Assembly (NCBI GenBank): GCA_028820795.1
Contig: JAPPHK010000028.1
Coordinates: 1 to 40,454, forward strand
Source: Nitrospinota bacterium
GTDB taxonomy: Bacteria > UBA8248
DNA: 40,454 nt
Reading direction: 5' to 3'
Part shown: positions 1-40,454 of the stretch, piece by piece
Numbering within the stretch: position 1 is the first letter of the stretch
Layout of the letters: the number at the start of each line of letters is the position of its first letter
Made by a program: the position numbers and the translations under genes
Notes under the pieces: generated by a model
Told to the model about the DNA's origin: nothing
What the model saw: only the letters and a program-made list of their open reading frames with translations
The model's database searches: none

Positions 1-9
1 AGCACGTTC

Positions 10-2085
10 TCAACCGCTGAAACAACTCCCGTCACCCTGCCGCCGAACGTTTACATGTATTTCTTCTGAGATGAACTTCAAATTGTCTAATTCAACAGAT
101 TGATCTCGGAAATCGCTTACGCGAATGTATGGATGTTTTGTCGGATAACCGGCAAACTGTTCTCCCTTTGGGAGCCTCTTTCCTCCTTTAACTTCACACA
201 CCTCCCCCAACGCCACCATCGGCCATTCGGGATCGATCGCTATATGCGGGCGGTAGTTGTCAACCACCGCGCGCGCTCCGTCGATGACCTTCTGGTAGCC
301 CTCGATTTCAGCGATGATCTCTTTTTGAATATCAGGAGGCGGGAGGGGGATTTGGATTTCCGATAATTGTCCTTTAGTAACCCCCTGAATCGTTGAACCT
401 TGACTAACCTTCTTGAAATTTTCGACTTTATCCTTAAGCACATACACGAGATAGTCTGCGTTGATCGTATCTTTTATGATTAGTCCTTGGGAATCCTGGC
501 TAATACAAACATCAAAGTCATTCCTGAATAACTTCCCTAGTCCAACTCTTGTTACTACTATCAGATTCCCCTTAGGGATTAAGTTAGTCGCTGATTCTTT
601 AATGGCTTTCTCTGTGATGTACTTCCGGGGCATCGCGGTCTTGAGGTCCACGATGTCCGCGCTTGTAATCCACGGAATATCTCCATTCCAGTAATCTTCA
701 TTTTTTGTTGATGGCGTACCTCCGCTTAAAATACCGTCGCAAATTTCCCCTAACTCCACCATCGGCCATTTCGTTTTTGAGAGAACTCGATTCTCCCGAT
801 ACCTCTCCCCACTCAGGTTGTACTCCCCGCCCCCTGCAATCTTCTCCTTCTCGACGACTAACCCCAACGTAGGTTCGAAGTCGTCAAGCGATTCCCCCGC
901 CCGCCCGCGTCTCAGATATTCGAGAATTTCCGCCTTCGCCTGCGGCAGGTCGTTTTTATCAATCTCCCGCCGCTGCGCTCCCAGGTCGAAGCCGTCGTTC
1001 TCCACTTTGAAGAAAGCGACATGGCCCGTTTTCCTCGCCAGTGCCCGATCCAAAATAAGAACGGAGGTCTTGACTCCTGCATAGGGGTTGAACACGCCCG
1101 CAGGGAGCGAGACCACGGCGACTAGGCATTCCTCCACCAGCATTTTGCGAAGCTGCTTATAAGCGTTCTGGCTCTGGAAGATGATCCCCTCGGGCACAAT
1201 GATTCCCGCGCGTCCCCCCGGTGTGAGATGCTCGGCCATGTAGTCCACGAAGAGCACTTCGCTTCGTTTGGATTTGACTGAAAAGCCGTTGTGTGGGCGG
1301 ATGCCGCCTTTGGGCGACATGAACGGGGGGTTCGCCAGAATCACGTCTGCGAAATCTTCCCAGCGCTCCTCGCTGGTGAGCGTATCGTACTCGAAAATAT
1401 GCGGGTCCTTGAGCTCGTGGAGATACATGTTCACCAGCGAGAGGCGCACCATGTCGGGCGAAATGTCGTAACCCTTCAAGTTGTCGGCCAGCCGCTTCCT
1501 CTCCTCTGGCGTCAAGGCGCCTCCGCCGTTAGCCTCCGCGTTTGACTTCAGAACGTGCTTGTAGGCGGAGATGAGAAAACCGGCGGTGCCGCAGGCGGGG
1601 TCGAGAATCTTCTCGTCCTTTTGGGGGTCCACTATCCCGACGATGAAGTCGATGATGTGGCGCGGCGTGCGGAACTGGCCGGCATCGCCCTGCGATCCGA
1701 GAACGGACAGCAGGTATTCAAAGGCGTCGCCCAGCCTTTCCGAATGCTCATAGCTGAACTCGTCGATGACCTTGAGAAACATTCGAAGCGTTTCGGGGTC
1801 TCGGTAGGGCAGAAAGGCGTTCTTGAAAATATCCCGAAACAGTGGCGGTATTCCGGGGTTTTCTGACATTTTCGTAATAGCGTCGGCGTAGAGGTTCAGA
1901 GTCTCGAAGCCGCCCAAACCCCCGCGAGTCAGTTTGGGCCACCCGTAGCGGGCGAAATCCCCGCCGAAGAAGCTGCGCTCCCCGCCCAGTTCCTCTATCT
2001 GCGCGTCCATGTCGTCCATGAACTTGTAGATGAGGGCGATGGTGATCTGCTCGACCTGGGACTTGGGGTCGGGAACCTTGCCCAC
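10..2085 (-). CDS. hsdM: Type I restriction-modification methyltransferase HsdM fused to HsdS-like target-recognition domains; C-terminus truncated near contig edge
   Basis: ILDPACGTAGFL (SAM-binding) and NPPF (N6-adenine MTase) motifs; N-terminal VPDPKSQVEQITIALIYKFMDDMD typical of HsdM; C-terminal WPMVELGEICDGILSGGTPSTKN and WPMVALGEVCEVKGGKRLPKG typical of HsdS TRDs. Start may lie upstream: RRRIDTARDIL is conserved-looking in frame but lacks ATG/GTG. Confidence 0.9.
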   Translation of the reverse strand: MGKVPDPKSQVEQITIALIYKFMDDMDAQIEELGGERSFFGGDFARYGWPKLTRGGLGGFETLNLYADAITKMSENPGIPPLFRDIFKNAFLPYRDPETLRMFLKVIDEFSYEHSERLGDAFEYLLSVLGSQGDAGQFRTPRHIIDFIVGIVDPQKDEKILDPACGTAGFLISAYKHVLKSNAEANGGGALTPEERKRLADNLKGYDISPDMVRLSLVNMYLHELKDPHIFEYDTLTSEERWEDFADVILANPPFMSPKGGIRPHNGFSVKSKRSEVLFVDYMAEHLTPGGRAGIIVPEGIIFQSQNAYKQLRKMLVEECLVAVVSLPAGVFNPYAGVKTSVLILDRALARKTGHVAFFKVENDGFDLGAQRREIDKNDLPQAKAEILEYLRRGRAGESLDDFEPTLGLVVEKEKIAGGGEYNLSGERYRENRVLSKTKWPMVELGEICDGILSGGTPSTKNEDYWNGDIPWITSADIVDLKTAMPRKYITEKAIKESATNLIPKGNLIVVTRVGLGKLFRNDFDVCISQDSQGLIIKDTINADYLVYVLKDKVENFKKVSQGSTIQGVTKGQLSEIQIPLPPPDIQKEIIAEIEGYQKVIDGARAVVDNYRPHIAIDPEWPMVALGEVCEVKGGKRLPKGEQFAGYPTKHPYIRVSDFRDQSVELDNLKFISEEIHVNVRRQGDGSCFSG

Positions 2086-2187
2086 GAGGATGTCGCGGGC
2101 GGTGTCGATGCGGCGTCTGGTGTCGGCGTCGAGAATGGGGTTTCTTCCTATGGGAATGATATGATCGATCAGACGTGATTCGGGAAA

Positions 2188-2628
2188 TTACCCGCGAATC
2201 ACGACCTTGCCGGTGATGCCGTTATAATCCATTTGAAAATTTCCGAGAAACGTCCGGCCTATCAGGGCGAAATGCCTTTGCCCGCCGGAAACCAGGTCGA
2301 CCCCGGCAAAAGAGCCGTATTGTATATGATCCAGCGCGGGAATATATATCTGCGCCGCGTGCATATCGGCGACGTAAGCGCCGCCGATTCCAGCCAGATT
2401 TTCGCGATCCACAACCGGCAGTTTCAACTGGGCGGCCAGTTGTTTGTCGATGCAGCTTATCGTCGCTCCGGTATCCACGACGGCATGGATTTGCTGAATC
2501 GAGGGGATGGGAATGCTCCCCTCTTTTCCCGGGTCGAAAGTCGGGTCGAAGCCGACGTCCACCAACAGTGTCGGCCCGTATTTGACCAGATCCTCCCGAT
2601 TGGAGAAGCCGCAATCCGTGCTAAGCAT
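2188..2628 (-). CDS. Retropepsin-like (clan AA) aspartyl protease family protein
   Basis: AVVDTGATISCIDKQLAAQLKLP (D-T-G-A catalytic motif) and C-terminal FALIGRTFLGNFQMDYNGITGKVVI typical of bacterial retropepsin-like proteins. Confidence 0.8.
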   Translation of the reverse strand: MLSTDCGFSNREDLVKYGPTLLVDVGFDPTFDPGKEGSIPIPSIQQIHAVVDTGATISCIDKQLAAQLKLPVVDRENLAGIGGAYVADMHAAQIYIPALDHIQYGSFAGVDLVSGGQRHFALIGRTFLGNFQMDYNGITGKVVIRG

Positions 2629-2863
2629 CTATCGGCCTGTACAATACCGACGCCGGCAAAGATTGCGGCCTCGCGCCGATTTGGCGAATCAGGTAAGGGC
2701 CTGCGCCGAACTTCTTTACCGCCACTTGCGCCGCATCATGAAAACTATCGAAAGTTCCGATAAACTCTTCCTGGTGAAACACAACCCATTTCCCCAGATG
2801 TTGCGCCTCCAGGCGTTCACGCATCTTTTCGAACGCCGCAATGTCATTATCTAATGCGTCCAT
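2621..2863 (-). CDS. Small hypothetical protein (DUF5678-like; GKWVVFHQEEFIGTFDSFHDAAQVA), overlapping the aspartyl protease start
   Basis: ATG start (MDALDNDIAAFEKM) after a G-rich RBS; stop overlaps the downstream protease start by 8 bp, suggesting translational coupling. Confidence 0.65.
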   Translation of the reverse strand: MDALDNDIAAFEKMRERLEAQHLGKWVVFHQEEFIGTFDSFHDAAQVAVKKFGAGPYLIRQIGARPQSLPASVLYRPIDA

Positions 2864-2968
2864 GTCCGCACCCCCCGAAATGGAAAAACGATTTTGTAGA
2901 AGGAAACGCGCCGCGCGCCGCAAATACCAAGACGCGGCTCAACGCCCGCCAAGGCGACCGCTCCCGAA

Positions 2969-3100
2969 TTACGCTGATACAGGGATTTTCCTGTCCGCCG
3001 CTCTGAATATCGTCTTGGTGCTTCGATTCGCAGTTCCGGTCGGGACTTCCATGACATTCCGGGCGGGGCGTCCCCATGATTTGCTCGTGTTCCGGCTCAT
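2969..3100 (-). CDS. Small 43-aa basic hypothetical protein (MSRNTSKSWGRPARNVMEVPTGTANRSTKTIFRAADRKIPVSA)
   Basis: Strong RBS AGGGAGG 8 nt before ATG; same strand as and between hsdR and downstream genes. Confidence 0.4.
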   Translation of the reverse strand: MSRNTSKSWGRPARNVMEVPTGTANRSTKTIFRAADRKIPVSA

Positions 3101-3226
3101 GGTTTGACCTCCCTGAGAATGAGCGTCTCCTGCTGCGAGGGCAGGAGATGACCCACTCTTTATGTCATGGCGCAAATCATTTATCAAACGCCGGCCGGAC
3201 TGCGCCATATCGCGCAGGGAATTCCT

Positions 3227-5779
3227 CTAAGGATATGGCGCAAACTTGTTCAAAGAAACGTAATCCTTGACGTAGTTCGGGATGAGAGCGCGATACTTCT
3301 CCGGCACGTTGCGCAAGTCGTCGAGTGAAAAAGCGGAGTTCGTGACGAGTTCGTTGTACCGCCTCTCGTCGATGACGGATCGAAGCCTGTCGCTCGTGAG
3401 ATACGCCTCGAAATAATTCCGAACCGCCGGAATGGCACTCGCTTCATCTGTTTCGTGCTCGGCGAGGAATTTGGCGAATTCCTCCTCCAGCAGGTCTCGC
3501 TTCGACTTGAACTCGGGGATGAGGCCGAAGACTTTCTCCAGAATCTCGCGCAGGGTGAGGCGGCGGTCCGCGTCGACGGCCTTGCGCAGCTTGTCGAGGT
3601 TGTAAAAATCCTCGGGCTTGTCGAACACTTCCCGGTTCACATGGTCGAGCACGCGCTCCCACTCACCGGCCCGGACGGCGGCGGCGATGGACGCATCCCC
3701 CTGAACGGTATCGCGGAACCTGTCGAAGAGCATGCGGTCGACCTTCATGCCCCGATATCCGATGGGCACTTCCTTTACCCCCGCGAGAATGTCCTCGCCC
3801 GTATACTCGTAAACGCCTCCTGTCGGAGTCGGCCCGTCGCCCTCACCGGGATCGTCCCCGCCCCGCCCGCGGCTTTGCGGCAGCTTCAGCACTTGCTCGT
3901 AGTCGTATTCGGTCTCGAAGTATTCATAGTTGCCGAAGAAATCGAAGAGCATGAACGTGGTCTTCTTCGTTTCATCCGATTCGGGAAAATCCCGCAAGAG
4001 CCGCTCGTCAATGATCTCCCGCCTGAAATCGTGCGTGCGCGTGCCGCGCCCTTTTATCTGCACGAAATCGGTGGGCGAGAAGATGGGGCGAATCAGGCCG
4101 AGGTTCAAAACGTCGGTGCAGTCGTAGCCCGTCGTCATCATCCCCACCGTCACGCAGACGCGGGCCTTGCTCGTGCGGTAACCATCCAGAAAGTTGGCCG
4201 AACCGAGCAGGTTGTTGTTCGAGAAATTGATGGTGAATTGCTGGGCGTCTGCGACCTGGGAGGTCACCTGCACGGCGAAGTCGGACTGGTACTTGCCCGG
4301 AAACATCCTGTCGGCGATCTCGTTCAATATCTGCGCGAGCTTGGCCGCGTGGTTCTGGCTTACGGCGAAGACGATGGCCTTTCCAACTTCCCCGCTCACG
4401 GGATCGCGCAGGGCCTTCTCCAGAAAGGTCTTGCAGAAAAGCTGGTTGGTCGCTTCGGAATAGAAGCGTTTTTCGAACTCGCGCTTCTTGTAGATTTCCT
4501 CCCATTCCTCGCCCTCATCGTCGGCGAACGCGGCGACGAAGCCCTGCTCCGAGAGAAGCTGCGTGGTAACGTCCGTGCGTGCGTCCATCACGGTCGCGTT
4601 GATCAGGTATCCGTCCCTCACGCCGTCGAGCAGCGAATAATGAAAAGTGGGCCGATCGATCTCGCAGCCGAAGGTGTGGTAGGTGTCTCGTTGCAGGCGG
4701 CGTTCCACCGCGCGCGGGTCGCGTATGGTCGCGTCGATCTCGTCGAAGTTCTTGAGGTAGGCGCGGGGCGTCGCCGTGAGGCCCAGCTTGCTGCCCACGA
4801 AGAAATCGAAAACCGCGCGCGCGTTGCCGCTTATCGAACGGTGCGCCTCGTCCGAAATCACCAGGTCGAAGTCCGTCGGTGAAAAAAGGCGCTCGTATTT
4901 GTCGTCGAACTGGAAGGATTGCACGGTGGTAACGACGATCTCGGCGCGCCGCCAGTCGTCGGGGTTGTGTTTGTAGACGACGGTGTCGTAGTCATTCGAG
5001 AGCAATTCCCTGAAGGCCTTGAACGCCTGCTCTTCGAGTTCGAGCCTGTCCACCAGGAAGAGCACGCGGCGGGCGTTGCCCGTGCGCAGAAACAGCTTGA
5101 TGATGGCGGCGGCGGTGAGCGTCTTGCCCGTGCCGGTCGCCATCTCGAACAGGAAGCGGTCGCTCCCTTCTCGCACCGCCTTTTGCAGCGCGTGGACAGC
5201 CCGCAGTTGATAGGGACGCAAAAAACGCAGCTTGTTGGCCCGGATGAATTCTTCGCGCTCGTGAGCGTTCTTCCAGGCGGCCTCCTTGGCGTAGTTCGGC
5301 CGCTGGGTGAGGACGATGTAGTCATCGCCGACTCGTTCGTCGATTAGTACCTGCGGATTGGGGGAAAACTCCCGGCGGGCGGATGCCGAGCCCGGCGCCG
5401 GAAAATCAGGAATGGAGTGAGGGTTTCCGTGTTCCAGATCCCAGAAGTAGTGACGGTTGCCGTTCGAGAGAATGACGAAGCGGCAGTTCTGAGAACGCGC
5501 GTATCTTCGGGCCTGCTCCTTGCCGACGAGCGGGTCCTTATCTTCCGACTTCGCCTCCAGGACGATGAAGGGGAATCCCGCCTCATCGAGCAGTAAAAAG
5601 TCGATAAAGCCTCTGGATGTTCGCTCGAAGTCATCGCCCAAAGCGTCAAGGTCCGCCGCCTTGATGGTGACGCTCGGCTCCAGGCAGATGTTGGCGGGCT
5701 TTCCGTCTTCGGCGAAGAAACGCCAGCCCGCCTCTTCGAGCAGCCTGTTTATCTTGACGCGCGCAGCCGCCTCGCTCAT
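3227..5779 (-). CDS. hsdR: Type I restriction enzyme R subunit HsdR (EcoEI-like; DEAD/DEAH translocase)
   Basis: FEMATGTGKTLTAAA (Walker A), VISDEAHRS (motif II), LGLTATPRAYLKNFDE, FVQIKGRGTRTHDF (motif VI); N-terminal nuclease-like FPFIVLEAKSEDKDPLVGKEQARRYA. Confidence 0.95.
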   Translation of the reverse strand: MSEAAARVKINRLLEEAGWRFFAEDGKPANICLEPSVTIKAADLDALGDDFERTSRGFIDFLLLDEAGFPFIVLEAKSEDKDPLVGKEQARRYARSQNCRFVILSNGNRHYFWDLEHGNPHSIPDFPAPGSASARREFSPNPQVLIDERVGDDYIVLTQRPNYAKEAAWKNAHEREEFIRANKLRFLRPYQLRAVHALQKAVREGSDRFLFEMATGTGKTLTAAAIIKLFLRTGNARRVLFLVDRLELEEQAFKAFRELLSNDYDTVVYKHNPDDWRRAEIVVTTVQSFQFDDKYERLFSPTDFDLVISDEAHRSISGNARAVFDFFVGSKLGLTATPRAYLKNFDEIDATIRDPRAVERRLQRDTYHTFGCEIDRPTFHYSLLDGVRDGYLINATVMDARTDVTTQLLSEQGFVAAFADDEGEEWEEIYKKREFEKRFYSEATNQLFCKTFLEKALRDPVSGEVGKAIVFAVSQNHAAKLAQILNEIADRMFPGKYQSDFAVQVTSQVADAQQFTINFSNNNLLGSANFLDGYRTSKARVCVTVGMMTTGYDCTDVLNLGLIRPIFSPTDFVQIKGRGTRTHDFRREIIDERLLRDFPESDETKKTTFMLFDFFGNYEYFETEYDYEQVLKLPQSRGRGGDDPGEGDGPTPTGGVYEYTGEDILAGVKEVPIGYRGMKVDRMLFDRFRDTVQGDASIAAAVRAGEWERVLDHVNREVFDKPEDFYNLDKLRKAVDADRRLTLREILEKVFGLIPEFKSKRDLLEEEFAKFLAEHETDEASAIPAVRNYFEAYLTSDRLRSVIDERRYNELVTNSAFSLDDLRNVPEKYRALIPNYVKDYVSLNKFAPYP

Positions 5780-5932
5780 CGGGTCCTATTCCTCGTGATA
5801 TAAATCTATTATTCAGGTCCTGCTTGTTTTATCCCCTTCACCACACGAGGGCAAGCTTCATCAATCGGAACGAACTCCCCCTCAGGGGAAGTCCCGACCC
5901 CCTCATCAACCGGCAGTCTCGCCCCATTTCAA

Positions 5933-6109: not shown

Positions 6110-6133
6110 TTTCCTCCCTTGACGTCGCTCAAT

Positions 6134-6158: not shown

Positions 6159-6176
6159 TACTCGCTTGAGGGAGCC

Positions 6177-6461
6177 ATGGCCGAACAACATCCCGAACCC
6201 CGCCGCGTCTGGACCGTCGCCGAGGCCAAGGCGCGTCTGTCCGAAGTGTTGCGCCGCGCCGAGGAGGAGGGGCCGCAGCACATCGGCAGGAGGCGGCCCT
6301 TCGTGGTCGTGCCCGCCGAGGCGTGGGACGCGAAAAACCCGCCCCGCAAGCCCATGGGGCAGTGGCTGGTCGAGAACATGCCGCGCGGCGCGAACCTGGA
6401 GATCCCGGCAACGAGAAGTTCCCGGAGAGAGACCCCCTTCGCCGATGAAGAGGCCGAATGA
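6177..6461 (+). CDS. Type II antitoxin, Phd/YefM family
   Basis: RRVWTVAEAKARLSEVLRRAEEEGPQHIGRRRPFVVVPAEAWDA matches the Phd/YefM fold pattern; overlaps downstream PIN toxin. Confidence 0.85.
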   Translation: MAEQHPEPRRVWTVAEAKARLSEVLRRAEEEGPQHIGRRRPFVVVPAEAWDAKNPPRKPMGQWLVENMPRGANLEIPATRSSRRETPFADEEAE

Positions 6462-6877
6462 GCGGGTTCCTCCTCGACACCAACGTCATTTCGGAGTTGA
6501 CGAGGGACGCGCCGCATTCGCGGGTGACGGCGTTCCTCGCAGGCGCTGAGGACCTGTGGCTCTCCGCCGTCGTACTGCACGAGCTGGATTTCGGCGTGGC
6601 GCTGCTGCCGCCCGGCCACCGCCGCGAGGGAATCCGCGCGACATTGTCCGCATTCACCTCGGAATATGAGGATCGGGTTCTGCCCGTGGGGCGGCCCGAA
6701 GCCGCCCGGGGCGCGGCCTTGAGGGCGCGGGCGCATCGGGCGGGCCGCGTGCTGGATATGGGGGACGCGCTGATCGCGGGGACGGCCGCGGCGCACGACC
6801 TTGCGATCGCGACGAGAAACGTCCGGGATTTCGACGGCCTCGAACTCGACGTCGTGAACCCCTGGGACGCGCCGTAG
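6458..6877 (+). CDS. vapC: PIN-domain toxin, VapC/FitB family
   Basis: MSGFLLDTNVISEL, LHELDFGV, DMGDALIAGTAAAHDLAIATRNVRDF: the acidic residues of the PIN domain; ATGA-type overlap with antitoxin. Confidence 0.9.
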   Translation: MSGFLLDTNVISELTRDAPHSRVTAFLAGAEDLWLSAVVLHELDFGVALLPPGHRREGIRATLSAFTSEYEDRVLPVGRPEAARGAALRARAHRAGRVLDMGDALIAGTAAAHDLAIATRNVRDFDGLELDVVNPWDAP

Positions 6878-12822: not shown

Positions 12823-12869
12823 CTCTCGCTCTTTATTCGGTCGCACTCCCTCCTCGGTCGGGAATGGCC

Positions 12870-13334
12870 TCACTCCCCCATACGCATTCTGCTTCTCGTC
12901 AGGGCGTCGATGGAGAGGGGGCCGCCTCCCATGAGGAGTATCGCGGTCGTGGCGAGGAGGAGGAAGAGCGAGTATTCGTATCCGCCGGCGACGGCGGCGC
13001 CGGTCTGGGGGTTCGTGACGATGCCGTGCATGAAAAAACCCTGGTCGAAATGCACGAACGCGGCGGCGCCCGCCATGATGGGAAGATTCATCAGGGCGCC
13101 CAGGCGGGCGTAGAGCCCGATGATCAGGAGCGCCCCGCCGACCAGGTGGCCCAGCAAAACGGCCCACGCACTGACGGTGGGCAGAGGGATTCCCATCGAT
13201 GCGTTCAGGGCGGCGAGGCGCTCCACGCCGATCACCAGCCATCCGTAATAGCCGTGCAGAACGTAGTAGACGCCCAGAGAGACGCGAAGCAGGGCGATTC
13301 CGTATGTCTGATACGGCCTCAACCTCGGGTTCAT
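12870..13334 (-). CDS. DoxX family membrane protein
   Basis: MNPRLRPYQTYGIALLRVSLGVYYVLHGYYGWLVIG... HLVGGALLIIGLYARLGALMNLPIMAGAAAFVH: DoxX-type four-helix pattern. Confidence 0.85.
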   Translation of the reverse strand: MNPRLRPYQTYGIALLRVSLGVYYVLHGYYGWLVIGVERLAALNASMGIPLPTVSAWAVLLGHLVGGALLIIGLYARLGALMNLPIMAGAAAFVHFDQGFFMHGIVTNPQTGAAVAGGYEYSLFLLLATTAILLMGGGPLSIDALTRSRMRMGE

Positions 13335-13363
13335 CGACTCTTCCCCAATCAATGTAAACACTT

Positions 13364-13387
13364 ATATTCGCGCAATTACGCGAATAT
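13364..13387. promoter_or_regulatory. Inverted repeat ATATTCGCG-N6-CGCGAATAT; candidate operator of the doxX-like gene
   Basis: Perfect 9-bp arms starting 29 nt upstream of the preferred ATG (13334). Confidence 0.55.
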
Positions 13388-13429
13388 CGCCACCCCTGCC
13401 ACAAGGGGTTGTTGAAAAACCCTTCTCCG

Positions 13430-13487
13430 CCTCATCCTGAGTAGCGGCGACGCCGCGTATCGAAGGATGCCCTCTCGACCGATGAGG
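13430..13487. repeat. Nested palindromic repeat (CCTCATCCTGAGTAGCGGCGACGCCGCGTATCGAAGGATG...GATGAGG)
   Basis: CATCCT/AGGATG, GCGGCG/CGCCGC and outer CCTCATC/GATGAGG arms. Confidence 0.7.
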
Positions 13488-13515
13488 AATGGTGGTTTTG
13501 CTCCTCGCTTTTGAT

Positions 13516-13647
13516 CGTCATTCCGGCGAATGCCGGAATCCAGGGACTTTGCTTTTGTATTTGTCTTTTCGCTGTATCGTTTTTGGGGGTCGTCCTGCGA
13601 TTCGGTGTCCCCGTCTGAATTGGATTCCGGCATTCGCCGGAATGACG
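13516..13647. repeat. 132-bp element bounded by 27-bp perfect inverted repeats CGTCATTCCGGCGAATGCCGGAATCCA
   Basis: Arms 13516-13542 and 13621-13647 are exact reverse complements; each arm contains its own 8-bp hairpin ATTCCGGC/GCCGGAAT. Confidence 0.85.
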
Positions 13648-13834
13648 GCGGTGGTCAATTACAAGCGGGGAGGGGCTTTTTCGACAACACCCAAAAACGC
13701 GGGGCGATTTGACCCGCGCGCGAAATGTGATAGAAGCAAAACGCGGCGCAGGCCATACGCCGAGCCGCGAGCCACGTGGAGCAGCCGTTTCCTCCAGCGT
13801 CGCCACCCAAAACTTGGAAAGCAGCCATCCGACA

Positions 13835-14551
13835 ATGAGCGAATCCGAAAAAAAACTATCCTTCAAGAACTTCATCATCCCGCTGGTCCTGGTCCTCGTT
13901 CTGTTCGTTTTCTTCTACTCGGGGCTGGGCCGCTACCTCACCTTCGAGACCCTGAGGGAGAACCAGGGCCTTCTCAAAGATTGGGTGCGCGAGAACGGCG
14001 CAATCGCCGTCATCACCTACATGCTCGCCTACGCGGCGGTCACGATATTCTCGCTTCCCGGCGGGTTGGTGATGAGCATCACGGGAGGCTTCCTGTTCGG
14101 GACCGTCTGGGGCGCGCTCTACATCGTCGTGGGCGCGACGGCGGGGGCGACCGTTCTCTTCATCGCGGCCAAGACCTCGCTCGGAGACCCCCTGCGCGCC
14201 AAGGCCGGCCCCTGGCTCCAGAAGATGGAAGAGGGTTTTCAGGAAAACGCGCTGAGCTACCTGCTGGTTTTAAGGCTGGTTCCCCTGTTCCCCTTTTTCG
14301 TGGTGAACCTGGTGCCCGCGTTCCTGGGGGTGTCCCTGAGCGTCTACGTCATCGGCACGTTCTTCGGCATCATTCCCGGCTCGTTCGTATTCGCCTCGGT
14401 GGGTGCGGGGCTCGGCAGCATTTTCGAGGCGGGGGGCGAGTTCTCCGCCAGGGGGATTCTGACGCCCCAGGTCCTCATCGCGCTCGTGGGGCTCGCCGTT
14501 CTCTCGCTCATCCCCGTGGTCTACAAGAAGATGAAATCGAAAGAGGGTTAG
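13835..14551 (+). CDS. TVP38/TMEM64 family (VTT/SNARE-associated domain) membrane protein
   Basis: YAAVTIFSLPGGLVMSITGGFLFGTVWGALYIVVGATAGATVLFIAAKTSLGD and RLVPLFPFFVVNLVPAFLGVSLSVYVIGTFFGIIPGSFVFASVGAGLG. Confidence 0.9.
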   Translation: MSESEKKLSFKNFIIPLVLVLVLFVFFYSGLGRYLTFETLRENQGLLKDWVRENGAIAVITYMLAYAAVTIFSLPGGLVMSITGGFLFGTVWGALYIVVGATAGATVLFIAAKTSLGDPLRAKAGPWLQKMEEGFQENALSYLLVLRLVPLFPFFVVNLVPAFLGVSLSVYVIGTFFGIIPGSFVFASVGAGLGSIFEAGGEFSARGILTPQVLIALVGLAVLSLIPVVYKKMKSKEG

Positions 14552-14558
14552 TCTTCAC

Positions 14559-15347
14559 TCAGAGCGGCTTGTCCGCCGTGAACAGGTATCTCGTCTGCGA
14601 GAAGAAATATGCGCCCCGCTCGTCCAGGCCGCGCAATTCACTCGCCCATGCGTCTACTTCCTCTTGCGTCAGGTCCGTTCTGGCGGGGACGACGCCCTGA
14701 AGCTGACGAATGAATTGAAAACTGAAGCTCTCGGGTTCGCAGGCGGTGTTGAGAACGGGAATCGCGCGGGCGGAAACATCGACGAAGCCCGCCGCCTCGA
14801 TACTGGACTTGAGCGTGAGCGGCAGCCTCAAATGGGCGAAGCCCTGCAACCAGCCATTCATTACCCGCTCGCAGAGCGCCGCATCCTCACAGCGCCACGA
14901 CGTGGCGCCCCAGTCGGCGTCGCTCACCGCGAGTCGTCCGCCGGGCTTCAATACGCGGTGAATCTCGCGCAAGGCCGCATCCACGTCAGCCACGAACTCC
15001 AGCGTCTGCACGCTCACGCAGGCGTCGAAATACTCATCTTCGAAGGGAAGTGATACGGCGTCTGCGATTTGAAAGTCGACCCAGGGCTTATCGGCGCAGC
15101 GCGTCCGGGCGAGCCCGATCATCGACTCGCTGATATCCACCCCGCGCACGCAACCCGTCGGGCCGACCGTCTGCGCCATCTCATCGGCGAAGAGGCCGGG
15201 GCCGGAACCCACGTCCAGAACGCGCATGCCGGGGGTGAGACCGAGCGCCTCTATCGTCCGCCGTCTGACCTCGGTCAAGTCCCGCGTCAGGTACATGACT
15301 TCGGCCTGGCGCGAGGCGCGCTCATCGAAATCCATCGTATCGCTCAC
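14559..15347 (-). CDS. Class I SAM-dependent methyltransferase (Methyltransf_11 type)
   Basis: GMRVLDVGSGPGLFADEMA, GVDISESMIGLAR, ADAVSLPFEDEYFDACVSVQTLEFV; GTG (15347) or ATG (15335) start. Confidence 0.88.
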   Translation of the reverse strand: MSDTMDFDERASRQAEVMYLTRDLTEVRRRTIEALGLTPGMRVLDVGSGPGLFADEMAQTVGPTGCVRGVDISESMIGLARTRCADKPWVDFQIADAVSLPFEDEYFDACVSVQTLEFVADVDAALREIHRVLKPGGRLAVSDADWGATSWRCEDAALCERVMNGWLQGFAHLRLPLTLKSSIEAAGFVDVSARAIPVLNTACEPESFSFQFIRQLQGVVPARTDLTQEEVDAWASELRGLDERGAYFFSQTRYLFTADKPL

Positions 15348-15450
15348 GGGCGCACTCCGGGGGGGGGGGTCGAACCCGACCGGGCAGAGAAGAAATTCAC
15401 TCCCCCCTTGAGGGGGTTGTTGAAAAAGCCCGATGAAGGAGGAATGGCGG

Positions 15451-15480
15451 TGTAGGGACAACCCTCCGTGGTTGTCCTTT
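15451..15480. repeat. TGTAGGG-family palindrome (core ACAACCCTCCGTGGTTGT)
   Basis: tgtagggacaaccctccgtggttgtccttt. Confidence 0.7.
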
Positions 15481-15498
15481 TGCAGGATGATTGCAATC

Positions 15499-15526
15499 AG
15501 GACAGGCACAGAGGCCTGTCCCTACG
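15499..15526. repeat. TGTAGGG-family palindrome (core GACAGGCACAGAGGCCTGTC)
   Basis: aggacaggcacagaggcctgtccctacg. Confidence 0.7.
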
Positions 15527-15611
15527 GGATCATCACGTCGCCGACAGGGGGGTACATGGACTTTTTCTAAAACCCCATATGCGACCCCTACACGCCCCCT
15601 CGAATAACGAC

Positions 15612-15641
15612 CGTAGGGGCAGGTCGCGACCTGTCCCTACA
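15612..15641. repeat. TGTAGGG-family palindrome (core CAGGTCGCGACCTG)
   Basis: cgtaggggcaggtcgcgacctgtccctaca. Confidence 0.75.
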
Positions 15642-15667
15642 ACAAACGTAAATCCTCTCGCCGACGC

Positions 15668-16063
15668 CTATTCGTCCTTGAAATACTCGGCGTCCTCGGG
15701 CCTCGCCTTCCAGTTCGGGTTGGTGGGCCATTCCTTGTGGCGCGAGACCTTGTCTCCCCCGTAGCGCACCCGGTAGAGCAGCGTGCGCTCCGAACCGTTC
15801 GTGTACTCGTGTAGCTCGCCCGGCGGATGGACGATGAAGGAGCCGGGGATCACGTCGACCTCGCCGGTGGGGGTCTTCATCCTGCCGCCGCCCTTGTAGC
15901 AGAAATAAATCTCCGTCGCGTAGGGGTGGCAGTGGTAGGGGCTCACCTGGCCGGGCTCCCAGCAGGCCACCGTCACGTCGCCCTCCTCGTAGCGGCCCAG
16001 AATCTTCTCCACGTGCTTCTCGGTGCTGAATTCCTTTTCCTTTTCCAGATCGAAAACGTGCAT
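15668..16063 (-). CDS. Cupin domain-containing protein
   Basis: PGQVSPYHCHPYATEIYFCYKGGGRMKTPTGEVDVIPGSFIVHPPGELHEYTNGS: two cupin motifs with His ligands. Confidence 0.88.
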   Translation of the reverse strand: MHVFDLEKEKEFSTEKHVEKILGRYEEGDVTVACWEPGQVSPYHCHPYATEIYFCYKGGGRMKTPTGEVDVIPGSFIVHPPGELHEYTNGSERTLLYRVRYGGDKVSRHKEWPTNPNWKARPEDAEYFKDE

Positions 16064-16131
16064 CTTCTTCTCCTGTGTACGTGATTACGTCTCTATGAAA
16101 ACGGGCGCGCGACGCGCCCCATGAACTCTCC

Positions 16132-17496
16132 CTACATCTGGCTGAACTCCTCGCAGATGGCGGCCATCCACTTGGCCCCGTCGATCAGGTCCGCGACTTT
16201 CAGGTTCTCGTTCGCGCTGTGCGTGCGCGAGGTGATGCGGCCCACACCGGTGGAGGACAGCGGAACCCCCAAATGCTTCAAGACGATATACGTCGGCGTG
16301 CTCCCGTTGCCGAAGGGGTTGATGATGGCGTCCTCCCCGTAGAGCCGCTGCGACGCCGCATTGCACGCCTTGACGATGTCGGCCTCCGGGTCGCTCTTCG
16401 CCGGGTAGGAGGTGAAGAGAAGCTCCACGCCGATGTCCTCGAAGCCGTGCCTGTCCAGGTGCGCGCGCACGCAGTCCCTGATTTTGTACGGGTCCTGGTT
16501 CGGCACGAGGCGGCAGTCTATCTTGGCCCTTGCGCGGGCGGAGACGATGGTCTTCACCCCCTCGCCGGTGTAGCCGCCGTCGAAACCGGCGATGTTGAAG
16601 GTGGGGTTAGCGAGATGGCGGCGCGGGAGGTCCTCGTCCTTCATGTCGAGGAGGAACCCCCGAAGCTCGAACTTCTCGACCCGCTCCGCCCCGTTGTAGG
16701 GTTTGATGCGGCGGATGAGCTCGTCCTCGATTTCGGTGACGGGCAGCACGTCGTCATAGAATCCTTCCACGAGCACGTTCTCGTCGCGGTCCTTCATGGT
16801 CGAGAGCGCCCACGTCATCCGCCAGGCCGCGTTCTCGTATATCTGGGCGTTCGAACTGTGGAAATCCACGTTCGCCGTCCGGCAGGTGAGCTCCATGTAG
16901 CAAAGCCCCTTGTTGCCGAGCGAGAGCACGGGGATGTCCACCCGCGTGGTGTTGTCCTCCCAGACGCAGCCGTCCGCGGCGAGCAGGTCGGCGTTTTCCT
17001 TCACGAACGGTTCGAGCGAGGGGCTTCCCACCTCTTCTTCGCCCTCGATGATGTACTTGACCGAACACGGCAGCTCGCCGCGCACCGCCAGAAACGCCTC
17101 GAACGCCGCCAGGCGGCTCATGATGTTGCCCTTGTTGTCCGTGGCGCCGCGCGCGATAACGGCGCCGTCCACTACTTCCGCGTCAAACGGCGGGGTGTCC
17201 CACTCGGAAAGCGGCTCGGCGGGCTGCACGTCGTAGTGGTTGTAGAAGAGGAGGGTCTTGTCTCCTCCGCCCGCAAGGGTCGCGGTGAGAATCGGGTTGC
17301 CCCCCGTCTCATGGAGCGTCGTCCCGAGTCCCGATCTCGCCACGCGGGCCTCGAGCAGGGCCGCCATCTCCCTTATACCCACGTTCGTGGTCGAGATGCT
17401 CGGCTGGCGGCAGAGTTCCTGCAGATCCGCCACGGTGCGCTCCGCGTTCGCATCGATATAGTCCAGCACTTTCTGGAAGTCACTTCCTTCGCTCAT
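16132..17496 (-). CDS. M20 family dipeptidase/metallopeptidase
   Basis: TLLFYNHYDVQPAEPLSEWDTPPF, ARGATDNKGNIMSRLAAFEAF, IIEGEEEVGSPSL, ARAKIDCRLVPNQDPYKI; start MSEGSDFQKVL with RBS aaaaggag. Confidence 0.93.
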   Translation of the reverse strand: MSEGSDFQKVLDYIDANAERTVADLQELCRQPSISTTNVGIREMAALLEARVARSGLGTTLHETGGNPILTATLAGGGDKTLLFYNHYDVQPAEPLSEWDTPPFDAEVVDGAVIARGATDNKGNIMSRLAAFEAFLAVRGELPCSVKYIIEGEEEVGSPSLEPFVKENADLLAADGCVWEDNTTRVDIPVLSLGNKGLCYMELTCRTANVDFHSSNAQIYENAAWRMTWALSTMKDRDENVLVEGFYDDVLPVTEIEDELIRRIKPYNGAERVEKFELRGFLLDMKDEDLPRRHLANPTFNIAGFDGGYTGEGVKTIVSARARAKIDCRLVPNQDPYKIRDCVRAHLDRHGFEDIGVELLFTSYPAKSDPEADIVKACNAASQRLYGEDAIINPFGNGSTPTYIVLKHLGVPLSSTGVGRITSRTHSANENLKVADLIDGAKWMAAICEEFSQM

Positions 17497-17672
17497 CGCA
17501 CACTCCTTTTCGCGGAACGCCCGCGGTCGGCTCATCGGTTTGATTATCAGCGTGGAACAAAGATATGATCCCGCACGCTTACATTCAACCCGAAAACCCG
17601 CATTCGCGCGACTTAGACCCGGGCGTCCATGCGCTCCGGCGCGTTCCGGATGCGGCCCGAAGGAGGCCATTC

Positions 17673-18848
17673 ATGCCCGAAGCACCCGCAAACACGAACT
17701 GGTACACGTACTTTCCCGAAGACTACCGCTGGTCGGCCGCCATCTGCGGCATGGTCTCGAGCGCGCAGTGGGGCGGGACCGAGATCGGCGAGGTCGACAA
17801 GGTCTGCCGCCGCCTCTACAAGAAACTCGGCGACGACAACCTCTGGTTCCGCGAGTGGGACCGCATGGGCGACACCGTGCGGGACCTGGGCCGCGCCGCC
17901 GAGCGCAAGAAGCGCAACCTCTCCGCCGCGACCCACTACAAGCGCGCCACCTGCTACTACCAGATGGGCGAGCGCTTCCGGACGCCCAAGGACAAGCGCG
18001 CCGTCGCCACGTTCAAGAAATCGCTCGACACCTTCCGCCGCTTCGTGCGCCTGACGGACAGGCCCCGAATCGAGGCCGTGGAGGTTCCCTTCGAGGGAAG
18101 AAAGAAACTCCCCGGCTATCTCGTGCACGCGGAGAACACGCGGAAGAGAAAGCCCCCCGTCGTGGTCTTTTTCGACGGGCTGGACGTGACCAAGGAGCTC
18201 CAGTTCACGCGCGGCGTGGAAGACCTCATCCGCCGGGGCATGAGCTGCCTGGTGATGGACGGCCCCGGCACGGGCGAGGCCATCCGCCTGCGGGATATCT
18301 ACCTGCGCCCCGACTACGAGGTCGCCGGATCGGCCGCGCTCGATTACCTGGAGACCAGAAACGACGTGGACGCGAAGCGAGCGGGCGTCATGGCCGTCAG
18401 CCTGGGCGGCTACTACGCGCCGCGCATCGCGAGCATGGAGCACCGCTACAAGGCGTGCCTGGCCTGGGGGGCGATATGGGACTACTACGCCACCTGGAAA
18501 AAGCGCATCGAGGCTTCGTTCAAGGCGGAGCTCTCCGTTCCGGGCCATCACATCCAGTGGATCCTGAACGCCGACTCGCTCGACGACGCCCTGGTCAAGC
18601 TCGAGGGCTTCCGGCTCGACGGCGTGGTGCAGAATATGCGGTGTCCCTTCCTCGTAACGCACGGGGCGGACGACAAGCAGATACCGCTCCGGGACGCCAA
18701 GGCGCTCTACAACGCCGTGGGCTCGAAGGACAAGACGCTCAAGGTCTTCACCGTGAAAGAGGGCGGCTCCCAGCACTGCCAGCGCGACAACTACGCCATC
18801 GGCACGGCCTACATGTTCGACTGGCTCCAGGAGAAGCTCTGCGGGTAG
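17673..18848 (+). CDS. Alpha/beta hydrolase (FrsA/DUF1100 or 2,6-dihydropseudooxynicotine-hydrolase-like)
   Basis: GVMAVSLGGYYAPRIA (GxSxG nucleophile elbow), RCPFLVTHGADDKQIPLRDA, C-terminal His in GGSQHCQRD; RBS aaggagg before ATG. Confidence 0.85.
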   Translation: MPEAPANTNWYTYFPEDYRWSAAICGMVSSAQWGGTEIGEVDKVCRRLYKKLGDDNLWFREWDRMGDTVRDLGRAAERKKRNLSAATHYKRATCYYQMGERFRTPKDKRAVATFKKSLDTFRRFVRLTDRPRIEAVEVPFEGRKKLPGYLVHAENTRKRKPPVVVFFDGLDVTKELQFTRGVEDLIRRGMSCLVMDGPGTGEAIRLRDIYLRPDYEVAGSAALDYLETRNDVDAKRAGVMAVSLGGYYAPRIASMEHRYKACLAWGAIWDYYATWKKRIEASFKAELSVPGHHIQWILNADSLDDALVKLEGFRLDGVVQNMRCPFLVTHGADDKQIPLRDAKALYNAVGSKDKTLKVFTVKEGGSQHCQRDNYAIGTAYMFDWLQEKLCG

Positions 18849-18960
18849 TCGATCCTGAGCGAGGAATCGACCGACCGAGGAAGGAGGAATCGATTCCGTA
18901 TAACGCAGGGACACTTGCAGGGACAGGCTCCCGTGCCTGTCCGGGCCCCGTGGTTTTCAT

Positions 18961-19005
18961 TGTAGGGACAGGCCCCCGTGCCTGTCCGAGGTCGCGACCT
19001 GTCCC
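18961..19005. repeat. Compound TGTAGGG-family palindrome (GACAGGCCCCCGTGCCTGTC fused to GAGGTCGCGACCTGTCCC)
   Basis: tgtagggacaggcccccgtgcctgtccgaggtcgcgacctgtccc; similar fused form at 10460-10490. Confidence 0.75.
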
Positions 19006-19072
19006 TTGAGGGATGGCAAACAAATTGGAAACTCACCTTTGAGGGGCAAACCCAACCGGGGAGAGAGAAATT

Positions 19073-19266
19073 CACTCCCCCCTTGAGGGTCGGGCATCTC
19101 CTCATCGGGATGCCCGACGATGAGGTAAGGGTGTAAACCCGAAACCGAATCGGTGGGGGGAGTTTTTTCTGTGGTATGTCCCCCCACCACATCGGCCTTC
19201 GCACAAACCGCTCGGCCTCTGTCGGGCTTTCCCCTCGGGAAGCCCGACCCCCTCAAGGGGGGAGTG
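19073..19266. mobile_element. MITE-like element: 17-bp perfect terminal inverted repeats CACTCCCCCCTTGAGGG with subterminal CGGGC...GCCCG hairpins
   Basis: Left terminus 19073-19089 and right terminus 19250-19266 are exact reverse complements; no transposase inside. Confidence 0.55.
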
Positions 19267-20217
19267 ATTAGAATCGCACAAAAGGGGAAACTAACCATCT
19301 TCCACACCCACGTCATCGTCGACTGGTCGGCGCGCTCGGAACCAAGCCCCGCCCGTCCGACAAAAGACGCCATCTGGTGGGCCGTCGCCAGAGACGGCGT
19401 CGTGGACGAACCCGCATACGCCCGCACCCGCCATGACGCCGTGGAGCGGCTCGCCACCCTGATTGAGACGGAACTCGACGCCGACCGCCGCGTGTTGATC
19501 GGCTTCGATTTTCCCTTCGGCTACCCCGCCGGAGTAGCGGCGCACCTGACCGGTGAGGCTTCGGCCTTCGCGCTTTGGGACTGGCTGGCAAGCCGCATCG
19601 AGGATGCCGAGGATAACGCGAACAACCGCTTTGAAGTCGCAGAAGAGATAAACCGGACCTATTCGGGAATCGGTCCTTTCTGGGGACGGCCGGGAACATG
19701 GGAATTCCTGGGGGTGCCGACACGCGAATCGCGCCGCACGCGCCGGGAGTCTCACCCGAACGAACGACGCATCGCCGACCACCACGCCAAAGGCGCCAAG
19801 ACCGTCTGGCAACTGGCCTACGCCGGTTCCGTCGGCTCACAGGTTCTTCTGGGTCTTCCCGCCATCAAGCGCCTCATCGAGCACCCGCGCATGAAAGGTC
19901 GCCTCGCCGTCTGGCCCTTCGATACCGGCTTGCGCGCACCCGAAGCCCCCGCCGTTGTCGCCGAAATCTACCCCTCCCTCCTGAGGCAAGAGATTGAGGA
20001 GCACAAGAGTGATGACGAGATACCGGACGCCGCCCAGGTTCGCGTGAATGCCGAGGCCTTCGCCCGGCTCGACGCTTTGGGCGGCCTGGGCCCCCTGTTC
20101 GAGGTCGGTCCTTATCTCGACGCGGAAGAGCGCCACATCGTCGAAACCGAGGAAGCATGGATTCTCGGCCTCGGCCATGCAGAGGCGCTCCATGAGGCGC
20201 TGGCGCGACCATTGTAG
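19264..20217 (+). CDS. Conserved hypothetical protein, possible DUF429-like nuclease fold
   Basis: HTHVIVDWSARSEPSPARPTKDAIWWAVA, RRVLIGFDFPFGYPAG, VWPFDTG...VVAEIYPSLL, DAEERHIVETEEAWILG; start codon uncertain (GTG 19264 or ATG 19153 inside the repeat). Confidence 0.7.
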   Translation: MIRIAQKGKLTIFHTHVIVDWSARSEPSPARPTKDAIWWAVARDGVVDEPAYARTRHDAVERLATLIETELDADRRVLIGFDFPFGYPAGVAAHLTGEASAFALWDWLASRIEDAEDNANNRFEVAEEINRTYSGIGPFWGRPGTWEFLGVPTRESRRTRRESHPNERRIADHHAKGAKTVWQLAYAGSVGSQVLLGLPAIKRLIEHPRMKGRLAVWPFDTGLRAPEAPAVVAEIYPSLLRQEIEEHKSDDEIPDAAQVRVNAEAFARLDALGGLGPLFEVGPYLDAEERHIVETEEAWILGLGHAEALHEALARPL

Positions 20218-20242
20218 GGGCGGTTCGCGAACCGCCCCTACA
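20213..20242. repeat. TGTAGGG-family palindrome at the exact axis of the window
   Basis: TGTAGGGGCGGTTCGCGAACCGCCCCTACA, axis between 20227 and 20228. Confidence 0.95.
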
Positions 20243-21191
20243 ATGGTCGCGCCAGCGCCTCATGGAGCGCCTCTGCATGGCCGAGGCCGAGAATCCATGC
20301 TTCCTCGGTTTCGACGATGTGGCGCTCTTCCGCGTCGAGATAAGGACCGACCTCGAACAGGGGGCCCAGGCCGCCCAAAGCGTCGAGCCGGGCGAAGGCC
20401 TCGGCATTCACGCGAACCTGGGCGGCGTCCGGTATCTCGTCATCACTCTTGTGCTCCTCAATCTCTTGCCTCAGGAGGGAGGGGTAGATTTCGGCGACAA
20501 CGGCGGGGGCTTCGGGTGCGCGCAAGCCGGTATCGAAGGGCCAGACGGCGAGGCGACCTTTCATGCGCGGGTGCTCGATGAGGCGCTTGATGGCGGGAAG
20601 ACCCAGAAGAACCTGTGAGCCGACGGAACCGGCGTAGGCCAGTTGCCAGACGGTCTTGGCGCCTTTGGCGTGGTGGTCGGCGATGCGTCGTTCGTTCGGG
20701 TGAGACTCCCGGCGCGTGCGGCGCGATTCGCGTGTCGGCACCCCCAGGAATTCCCATGTTCCCGGCCGTCCCCAGAAAGGACCGATTCCCGAATAGGTCC
20801 GGTTTATCTCTTCTGCGACTTCAAAGCGGTTGTTCGCGTTATCCTCGGCATCCTCGATGCGGCTTGCCAGCCAGTCCCAAAGCGCGAAGGCCGAAGCCTC
20901 ACCGGTCAGGTGCGCCGCTACTCCGGCGGGGTAGCCGAAGGGAAAATCGAAGCCGATCAACACGCGGCGGTCGGCGTCGAGTTCCGTCTCAATCAGGGTG
21001 GCGAGCCGCTCCACGGCGTCATGGCGGGTGCGGGCGTATGCGGGTTCGTCCACGACGCCGTCTCTGGCGACGGCCCACCAGATGGCGTCTTTTGTCGGAC
21101 GGGCGGGGCTTGGTTCCGAGCGCGCCGACCAGTCGACGATGACGTGGGTGTGGAAGATGGTTAGTTTCCCCTTTTGTGCGATTCTAATCAC
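20238..21191 (-). CDS. Mirror copy: conserved hypothetical protein (twin of 19264-20217)
   Basis: Identical translation on opposite strand. Confidence 0.7.
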   Translation of the reverse strand: MIRIAQKGKLTIFHTHVIVDWSARSEPSPARPTKDAIWWAVARDGVVDEPAYARTRHDAVERLATLIETELDADRRVLIGFDFPFGYPAGVAAHLTGEASAFALWDWLASRIEDAEDNANNRFEVAEEINRTYSGIGPFWGRPGTWEFLGVPTRESRRTRRESHPNERRIADHHAKGAKTVWQLAYAGSVGSQVLLGLPAIKRLIEHPRMKGRLAVWPFDTGLRAPEAPAVVAEIYPSLLRQEIEEHKSDDEIPDAAQVRVNAEAFARLDALGGLGPLFEVGPYLDAEERHIVETEEAWILGLGHAEALHEALARPL

Positions 21192-34522: not shown

Positions 34523-34675
34523 TTGAAATGGGGCGAGACTGCCGGTTGATGAGGGGGTCGGGACTTCCCCTGAGGGGGAGTTCGTTCCGATTGATGAAGC
34601 TTGCCCTCGTGTGGTGAAGGGGATAAAACAAGCAGGACCTGAATAATAGATTTATATCACGAGGAATAGGACCCG

Positions 34676-37228: not shown

Positions 37229-37354
37229 AGGAATTCCCTGCGCGATATGGCGCAGTCCGGCCGGCGTTTGATAAATGATTTGCGCCATGACATAAAGAGT
37301 GGGTCATCTCCTGCCCTCGCAGCAGGAGACGCTCATTCTCAGGGAGGTCAAACC

Positions 37355-37486
37355 ATGAGCCGGAACACGAGCAAATCATGGGGACGCCCCGCCCGGAATG
37401 TCATGGAAGTCCCGACCGGAACTGCGAATCGAAGCACCAAGACGATATTCAGAGCGGCGGACAGGAAAATCCCTGTATCAGCGTAA
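37355..37486 (+). CDS. Mirror copy: small 43-aa hypothetical protein
   Basis: Identical to 2969-3100. Confidence 0.4.
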   Translation: MSRNTSKSWGRPARNVMEVPTGTANRSTKTIFRAADRKIPVSA

Positions 37487-37591
37487 TTCGGGAGCGGTCG
37501 CCTTGGCGGGCGTTGAGCCGCGTCTTGGTATTTGCGGCGCGCGGCGCGTTTCCTTCTACAAAATCGTTTTTCCATTTCGGGGGGTGCGGAC

Positions 37592-37834
37592 ATGGACGCA
37601 TTAGATAATGACATTGCGGCGTTCGAAAAGATGCGTGAACGCCTGGAGGCGCAACATCTGGGGAAATGGGTTGTGTTTCACCAGGAAGAGTTTATCGGAA
37701 CTTTCGATAGTTTTCATGATGCGGCGCAAGTGGCGGTAAAGAAGTTCGGCGCAGGCCCTTACCTGATTCGCCAAATCGGCGCGAGGCCGCAATCTTTGCC
37801 GGCGTCGGTATTGTACAGGCCGATAGATGCTTAG
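37592..37834 (+). CDS. Mirror copy: small DUF5678-like protein
   Basis: Identical to 2621-2863. Confidence 0.65.
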   Translation: MDALDNDIAAFEKMRERLEAQHLGKWVVFHQEEFIGTFDSFHDAAQVAVKKFGAGPYLIRQIGARPQSLPASVLYRPIDA

Positions 37835-38267
37835 CACGGATTGCGGCTTCTCCAATCGGGAGGATCTGGTCAAATACGGGCCGACACTGTTGGTGGACGT
37901 CGGCTTCGACCCGACTTTCGACCCGGGAAAAGAGGGGAGCATTCCCATCCCCTCGATTCAGCAAATCCATGCCGTCGTGGATACCGGAGCGACGATAAGC
38001 TGCATCGACAAACAACTGGCCGCCCAGTTGAAACTGCCGGTTGTGGATCGCGAAAATCTGGCTGGAATCGGCGGCGCTTACGTCGCCGATATGCACGCGG
38101 CGCAGATATATATTCCCGCGCTGGATCATATACAATACGGCTCTTTTGCCGGGGTCGACCTGGTTTCCGGCGGGCAAAGGCATTTCGCCCTGATAGGCCG
38201 GACGTTTCTCGGAAATTTTCAAATGGATTATAACGGCATCACCGGCAAGGTCGTGATTCGCGGGTAA
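37827..38267 (+). CDS. Mirror copy: retropepsin-like aspartyl protease
   Basis: Identical to 2188-2628. Confidence 0.8.
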   Translation: MLSTDCGFSNREDLVKYGPTLLVDVGFDPTFDPGKEGSIPIPSIQQIHAVVDTGATISCIDKQLAAQLKLPVVDRENLAGIGGAYVADMHAAQIYIPALDHIQYGSFAGVDLVSGGQRHFALIGRTFLGNFQMDYNGITGKVVIRG

Positions 38268-38369
38268 TTTCCCGAATCACGTCTGATCGATCATATCATT
38301 CCCATAGGAAGAAACCCCATTCTCGACGCCGACACCAGACGCCGCATCGACACCGCCCGCGACATCCTC

Positions 38370-40445
38370 GTGGGCAAGGTTCCCGACCCCAAGTCCCAGG
38401 TCGAGCAGATCACCATCGCCCTCATCTACAAGTTCATGGACGACATGGACGCGCAGATAGAGGAACTGGGCGGGGAGCGCAGCTTCTTCGGCGGGGATTT
38501 CGCCCGCTACGGGTGGCCCAAACTGACTCGCGGGGGTTTGGGCGGCTTCGAGACTCTGAACCTCTACGCCGACGCTATTACGAAAATGTCAGAAAACCCC
38601 GGAATACCGCCACTGTTTCGGGATATTTTCAAGAACGCCTTTCTGCCCTACCGAGACCCCGAAACGCTTCGAATGTTTCTCAAGGTCATCGACGAGTTCA
38701 GCTATGAGCATTCGGAAAGGCTGGGCGACGCCTTTGAATACCTGCTGTCCGTTCTCGGATCGCAGGGCGATGCCGGCCAGTTCCGCACGCCGCGCCACAT
38801 CATCGACTTCATCGTCGGGATAGTGGACCCCCAAAAGGACGAGAAGATTCTCGACCCCGCCTGCGGCACCGCCGGTTTTCTCATCTCCGCCTACAAGCAC
38901 GTTCTGAAGTCAAACGCGGAGGCTAACGGCGGAGGCGCCTTGACGCCAGAGGAGAGGAAGCGGCTGGCCGACAACTTGAAGGGTTACGACATTTCGCCCG
39001 ACATGGTGCGCCTCTCGCTGGTGAACATGTATCTCCACGAGCTCAAGGACCCGCATATTTTCGAGTACGATACGCTCACCAGCGAGGAGCGCTGGGAAGA
39101 TTTCGCAGACGTGATTCTGGCGAACCCCCCGTTCATGTCGCCCAAAGGCGGCATCCGCCCACACAACGGCTTTTCAGTCAAATCCAAACGAAGCGAAGTG
39201 CTCTTCGTGGACTACATGGCCGAGCATCTCACACCGGGGGGACGCGCGGGAATCATTGTGCCCGAGGGGATCATCTTCCAGAGCCAGAACGCTTATAAGC
39301 AGCTTCGCAAAATGCTGGTGGAGGAATGCCTAGTCGCCGTGGTCTCGCTCCCTGCGGGCGTGTTCAACCCCTATGCAGGAGTCAAGACCTCCGTTCTTAT
39401 TTTGGATCGGGCACTGGCGAGGAAAACGGGCCATGTCGCTTTCTTCAAAGTGGAGAACGACGGCTTCGACCTGGGAGCGCAGCGGCGGGAGATTGATAAA
39501 AACGACCTGCCGCAGGCGAAGGCGGAAATTCTCGAATATCTGAGACGCGGGCGGGCGGGGGAATCGCTTGACGACTTCGAACCTACGTTGGGGTTAGTCG
39601 TCGAGAAGGAGAAGATTGCAGGGGGCGGGGAGTACAACCTGAGTGGGGAGAGGTATCGGGAGAATCGAGTTCTCTCAAAAACGAAATGGCCGATGGTGGA
39701 GTTAGGGGAAATTTGCGACGGTATTTTAAGCGGAGGTACGCCATCAACAAAAAATGAAGATTACTGGAATGGAGATATTCCGTGGATTACAAGCGCGGAC
39801 ATCGTGGACCTCAAGACCGCGATGCCCCGGAAGTACATCACAGAGAAAGCCATTAAAGAATCAGCGACTAACTTAATCCCTAAGGGGAATCTGATAGTAG
39901 TAACAAGAGTTGGACTAGGGAAGTTATTCAGGAATGACTTTGATGTTTGTATTAGCCAGGATTCCCAAGGACTAATCATAAAAGATACGATCAACGCAGA
40001 CTATCTCGTGTATGTGCTTAAGGATAAAGTCGAAAATTTCAAGAAGGTTAGTCAAGGTTCAACGATTCAGGGGGTTACTAAAGGACAATTATCGGAAATC
40101 CAAATCCCCCTCCCGCCTCCTGATATTCAAAAAGAGATCATCGCTGAAATCGAGGGCTACCAGAAGGTCATCGACGGAGCGCGCGCGGTGGTTGACAACT
40201 ACCGCCCGCATATAGCGATCGATCCCGAATGGCCGATGGTGGCGTTGGGGGAGGTGTGTGAAGTTAAAGGAGGAAAGAGGCTCCCAAAGGGAGAACAGTT
40301 TGCCGGTTATCCGACAAAACATCCATACATTCGCGTAAGCGATTTCCGAGATCAATCTGTTGAATTAGACAATTTGAAGTTCATCTCAGAAGAAATACAT
40401 GTAAACGTTCGGCGGCAGGGTGACGGGAGTTGTTTCAGCGGTTGA
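38370..40445 (+). CDS. hsdM: Mirror copy: HsdM-HsdS fusion (truncated)
   Basis: Identical to 10-2085. Confidence 0.9.
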   Translation: MGKVPDPKSQVEQITIALIYKFMDDMDAQIEELGGERSFFGGDFARYGWPKLTRGGLGGFETLNLYADAITKMSENPGIPPLFRDIFKNAFLPYRDPETLRMFLKVIDEFSYEHSERLGDAFEYLLSVLGSQGDAGQFRTPRHIIDFIVGIVDPQKDEKILDPACGTAGFLISAYKHVLKSNAEANGGGALTPEERKRLADNLKGYDISPDMVRLSLVNMYLHELKDPHIFEYDTLTSEERWEDFADVILANPPFMSPKGGIRPHNGFSVKSKRSEVLFVDYMAEHLTPGGRAGIIVPEGIIFQSQNAYKQLRKMLVEECLVAVVSLPAGVFNPYAGVKTSVLILDRALARKTGHVAFFKVENDGFDLGAQRREIDKNDLPQAKAEILEYLRRGRAGESLDDFEPTLGLVVEKEKIAGGGEYNLSGERYRENRVLSKTKWPMVELGEICDGILSGGTPSTKNEDYWNGDIPWITSADIVDLKTAMPRKYITEKAIKESATNLIPKGNLIVVTRVGLGKLFRNDFDVCISQDSQGLIIKDTINADYLVYVLKDKVENFKKVSQGSTIQGVTKGQLSEIQIPLPPPDIQKEIIAEIEGYQKVIDGARAVVDNYRPHIAIDPEWPMVALGEVCEVKGGKRLPKGEQFAGYPTKHPYIRVSDFRDQSVELDNLKFISEEIHVNVRRQGDGSCFSG

Positions 40446-40454
40446 GAACGTGCT

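Follow-up and report, generated by a model that had tools for sequence, protein, structure and literature searches.

Contig JAPPHK010000028.1 (C87) of the Nitrospinota bacterium assembly GCA_028820795.1 reads the same on both strands, and the question raised by this locus is whether such a 40-kb mirror exists in the organism or was made when its genome was assembled. The window analysed here, 40,454 nucleotides in length, is the entire contig from its first to its last base, and the mirror therefore takes up all of it rather than a section of a larger contig. Comparison of the whole window with its own reverse complement gave a match at 40,454 of 40,454 positions with no mismatch (G equals C and A equals T in the base counts), and the mirror turns directly at 20227|20228 without a spacer. 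The perfect, spacerless 20,227-bp inverted repeat with identical arms that an earlier note had described from the letters of this contig is borne out to the last base. Both arms end on the same base, no unique flank is present outside either of them, and 20,227 matched base pairs cannot be attributed to chance. In the genome bin to which the contig belongs (3.28 Mb, 322 contigs, 79.5% complete), the DNA at the axis and the DNA at the contig end are each found once per arm and in this contig only, no separate contig carrying the arm in single copy turned up, and no overlap was found between the outer contig end and other contigs. We consider that the mirror is very probably an assembly artefact and not a biological feature. 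Positions 1-20227 (forward strand), hereafter arm S, would be one real stretch of chromosomal DNA, judging from the self-comparison and the gene content, while 20228-40454 (reverse strand) would be its artefactual copy, the exact reverse complement of 1-20227 with 0 mismatches. Usable information is contained in bases 1-20227 only, the remainder being a copy.

The point at which the contig turns back is the centre of a short repeat. The axis palindrome (20210-20245, no strand) reads CATTGTAGGGGCGGTTCG up to the axis and CGAACCGCCCCTACAATG beyond it, and its 28-b core, GTAGGGGCGGTTCGCGAACCGCCCCTAC (20214-20241), has the axis in its middle. This core is a dispersed repeat, present in the bin at 13 exact places and at 25 places when up to two mismatches are allowed (axis copy included), and the axis sequence is not confined to replicon ends. 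The 12 other exact copies have ordinary, non-mirrored flanks and their symmetry stops 14 b to either side, so that what is repeated is short, and its copies usually assemble together with ordinary flanks. It has the look of a repetitive extragenic palindrome (REP) or a miniature inverted-repeat transposable element (MITE), and its spread among congeners is very uneven, with 24 exact copies in one genome (G001) and 0 in another (G002). No structured RNA showed up at the axis or close to it, 1-20260 being without an Rfam match.

The same locus is present in six genomes of the same genus (L038, L039, L040, L041, L042, and L082), in which the gene ending at the axis has 80-85% identity. These named relatives are metagenome-assembled genomes (MAGs), the labels being Nitrospinota or Nitrospinae in four cases and simply "bacterium" in two, and several have SPAdes-style NODE names. 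The stretch 12868-20227 is broadly colinear with the congeners, some of whose contigs begin inside it. Past the gene, the DNA of all six is unrelated to the reverse complement of the arm and the chromosome continues; ca. 0.5-2 kb past the axis position, each of them has the start of a second, conserved hydrolase gene, which shares 71-73% identity with window 17700-18848. The palindrome itself stands behind the gene in four of the six congeners, as a perfect 40 b in L038, as 28 b in L042, with one mismatch in L041, and as a remnant in L040; the repeat is missing at this place in L039 and L082. When the bin was searched for an orthologous right flank with the 5 kb right flanks of L038 and L042, only paralogues of 71-75% and dispersed repeats were recovered, which suggests that the true right flank is likely absent from the bin. 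Such an absence would be expected if the assembly broke at this place; as the bin is incomplete, the missing right flank alone proves little.

We propose that the real molecule would run from the chromosomal arm S through a short perfect palindrome, here called P (a copy of the dispersed repeat), and on into other DNA as its right flank, X. If the k of a de Bruijn graph does not exceed the length of P, a path leading from S through P into the reverse complement of S would be as valid as the path from S through P into X, because P reads identically on both strands. If X were poorly covered, or trimmed as a tip, the opposite strand of S would become the sole exit from P, and the contig would then retrace itself to its own start, producing an exact, spacerless palindrome of 2 x 20,227 b. 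The earlier note had suspected that the assembler ran over onto the opposite strand of its own contig; this part of its interpretation is strengthened, as a cause can now be named: a dispersed palindrome stands exactly at the axis, and the bin lacks the right flank.

The congeners provide the material in which such a path can be followed. At all tested k up to 41, no k-mer of the fold-back path (i.e., the arm followed by its reverse complement) is lacking from the normal locus of L038; for L042, with its 28-b palindrome, the corresponding limit falls at a k between 27 and 31. A toy unitig assembler fed with simulated 150-b reads of L038 reproduced the structure in silico: at k = 33, a 4,000-b arm with 60 b of right flank yielded a full-length perfect palindrome of 7,888 b, and a 1-kb arm yielded a palindromic contig in six of six runs with 30-80 b of right flank and in none of six with at least 100 b. 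At k = 55 a palindromic contig never formed. The bin bears marks of this larger k, as an overlap of exactly 55 b is found between the flanks of three of its five 100-N gaps and likewise between the ends of two contigs; given these exact overlaps, k = 55 was likely the final k, and the bin was probably produced by a multi-k short-read assembler, for which the metaSPAdes scheme 21/33/55 is presumably the obvious candidate. The 100-N gaps at L210, L266, and L271 (contigs C214, C230, and C235 of G000) lie between exact 55-b duplicates and are really k-mer overlaps. We infer that a k = 33 intermediate was carried into the k = 55 final stage, which would fit the marks seen in the bin.

Several points weigh against an assembly fold-back. 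At k = 55, 14 k-mers of the L038 fold-back path are missing from the normal locus, and at this k the path would exist only if a smaller k had supplied it or if P, which measures 40 b in L038 and 28 b in L042, were longer in the present genome. With 20 b of right flank, none of it effectively covered, the toy assembler halted at the axis (one run), so that a fold-back appears to need reads that pass through P, yet not far beyond it. Further palindromic contigs, which would be a sign of a systematic fault, numbered 0 among 107 other whole contigs (1.16 Mb) although the repeat is common, and thus the event must be rare. The case is built on assembled sequence. Two apparent 100-b palindromes elsewhere in the bin were rejected, as they are runs of N.

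The same contig might be reached by way of a fold-back molecule formed in the library or during whole-genome amplification, the palindrome having snapped back and primed synthesis on its own strand, with the chimeric reads being assembled afterwards. It is well documented that whole-genome amplification yields palindromic chimeras (PMC6218980), and a hairpin-forming axis would favour such a molecule, which the earlier note had placed on an equal footing with an assembler's error (as a chimera or a product of multiple displacement amplification). With the axis at the centre of a dispersed palindrome and normal DNA beyond it in the congeners, this origin loses that standing and we regard it as improbable: abundant chimeric reads at one place would be needed to outvote the true flank, none of the bin's 12 other exact copies of the palindrome is mirrored, and no sign of amplification is known for the sample. 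The amplification palindromes of PMC6218980, described in long reads, resemble the present contig in that a molecule is followed by its own reverse complement, but they are polymerase-made and visible in the reads, whereas for an assembly fold-back the graph alone suffices; that work moreover ties its chimeras to no one repeat, whereas the axis here is a dispersed palindrome at the end of the same gene as in congeners.

A hairpin-ended linear replicon, read round its closed tip, would also present S and then the reverse complement of S, joined at a palindromic target of the resolvase; exactly this anatomy would be expected of it, down to the lack of any divergence and the palindromic axis. The claim of the earlier note that no natural mechanism other than very recent duplication or ongoing arm-to-arm conversion keeps such arms identical was therefore too strong, though this alternative fails the tests applied here and appears exceedingly improbable. 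The palindrome is dispersed over many internal sites, the DNA of the congeners runs past it, and a telomere resolvase of the ResT/TelK type (PF16684) was not found in the 79.5%-complete bin by a search that was positive in one control genome, in agreement with the earlier remark that no protelomerase is visible. No replication gene was found among the proteins scanned, and a megablast search against 72,556 plasmids gave no record with more than 3% coverage, the matches coming from the conserved transporter and other short stretches. The annotation of the arm likewise agrees with the earlier view that its gene content is chromosomal. We give slightly less credence still to the specific version in which a linear chromosome or plasmid of this Nitrospinota lineage ends in a closed hairpin, seen here as the contig, and the dispersed palindrome acts as the resolution site for an unknown resolvase. 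If real, it would mean a hairpin-ended replicon in Nitrospinota, and the evidence is against it. A genuine, very recent head-to-head duplication or an inverted dimer junction in the chromosome would yield identical arms too, but it is just as hard to credit as a hairpin end, given that arms starting and ending on the same base without unique flank are not readily expected of a real duplication, that a dispersed repeat sits at the axis, and that long spacerless palindromes are unstable in bacteria.

Palindromic contigs mirrored exactly at mid-contig have been reported from single-cell genome assemblies, where they were judged very likely to be assembly artefacts and were removed (PMC12755884). 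The passage on them names no cause, whereas the present contig turns at a short palindrome that is dispersed in the genome; their source is single-cell assemblies, while this contig comes from a fragmented bin, and the named congeners of that bin are MAGs. In metagenome scaffolds, identical sequence has been found artificially concatenated with the help of a repeat finder (PMC7111523); there, too, an assembler repeats its own sequence, but the result is concatenated repeats and not an inverted full-length copy. Our literature searches found no published description of the exact cause proposed here.

The consequences for the bin are practical. The contig inflates it by 20 kb and doubles each of the contig's genes, so that any gene copy number, claimed duplication or coverage statistic derived from it is wrong; the advice of the earlier note to halve all copy-number claims is sound, as the second arm is a copy of the first. 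As a practical rule, contigs identical to their own reverse complement that turn at a short dispersed palindrome can be recognised and cut by an automatic filter.

The genes of the arm are of chromosomal kinds, i.e., type I restriction, an ABC transporter of the taurine/nitrate kind, a toxin-antitoxin-like pair, a VTT-domain protein, a methyltransferase, a cupin-like protein, an M20 peptidase, an alpha/beta hydrolase, and a 354-aa conserved protein. The last of these is encoded by the final gene before the axis (19153-20217, forward strand), whose stop codon lies inside the palindrome and whose gene order is the same in congeners. Its conserved part (19225-20214) is without a Pfam match, and 484 relatives were confirmed, widespread in MAGs and Rhodobacterales. 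The Peptidase_S9/FrsA-like alpha/beta hydrolase (17565-18848, forward strand) has a second paralogue beyond the axis position in congeners that is absent here. At the outer contig end, a probable assembly break, lies an hsdM-hsdS fusion-like open reading frame (ORF; 10-2085, reverse strand), in which hsdM runs in frame into an hsdS specificity domain; a second specificity stretch at this locus is broken off by the contig end, as at a repeat or a shufflable hsdS locus. At 6177-6877 (forward strand), an antitoxin-like ORF (with a Phd/YefM match on a plasmid, H13) is paired with a PIN-toxin-like ORF, and a PIN-like ORF is also found directly past the axis position in congener L038 (7064-7519). 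Other dispersed repeats occur at 13489-13690 and 19020-19270, translating to HSGECRNP, WIPAFAGMT and similar motifs, and some of them are also present in congeners.
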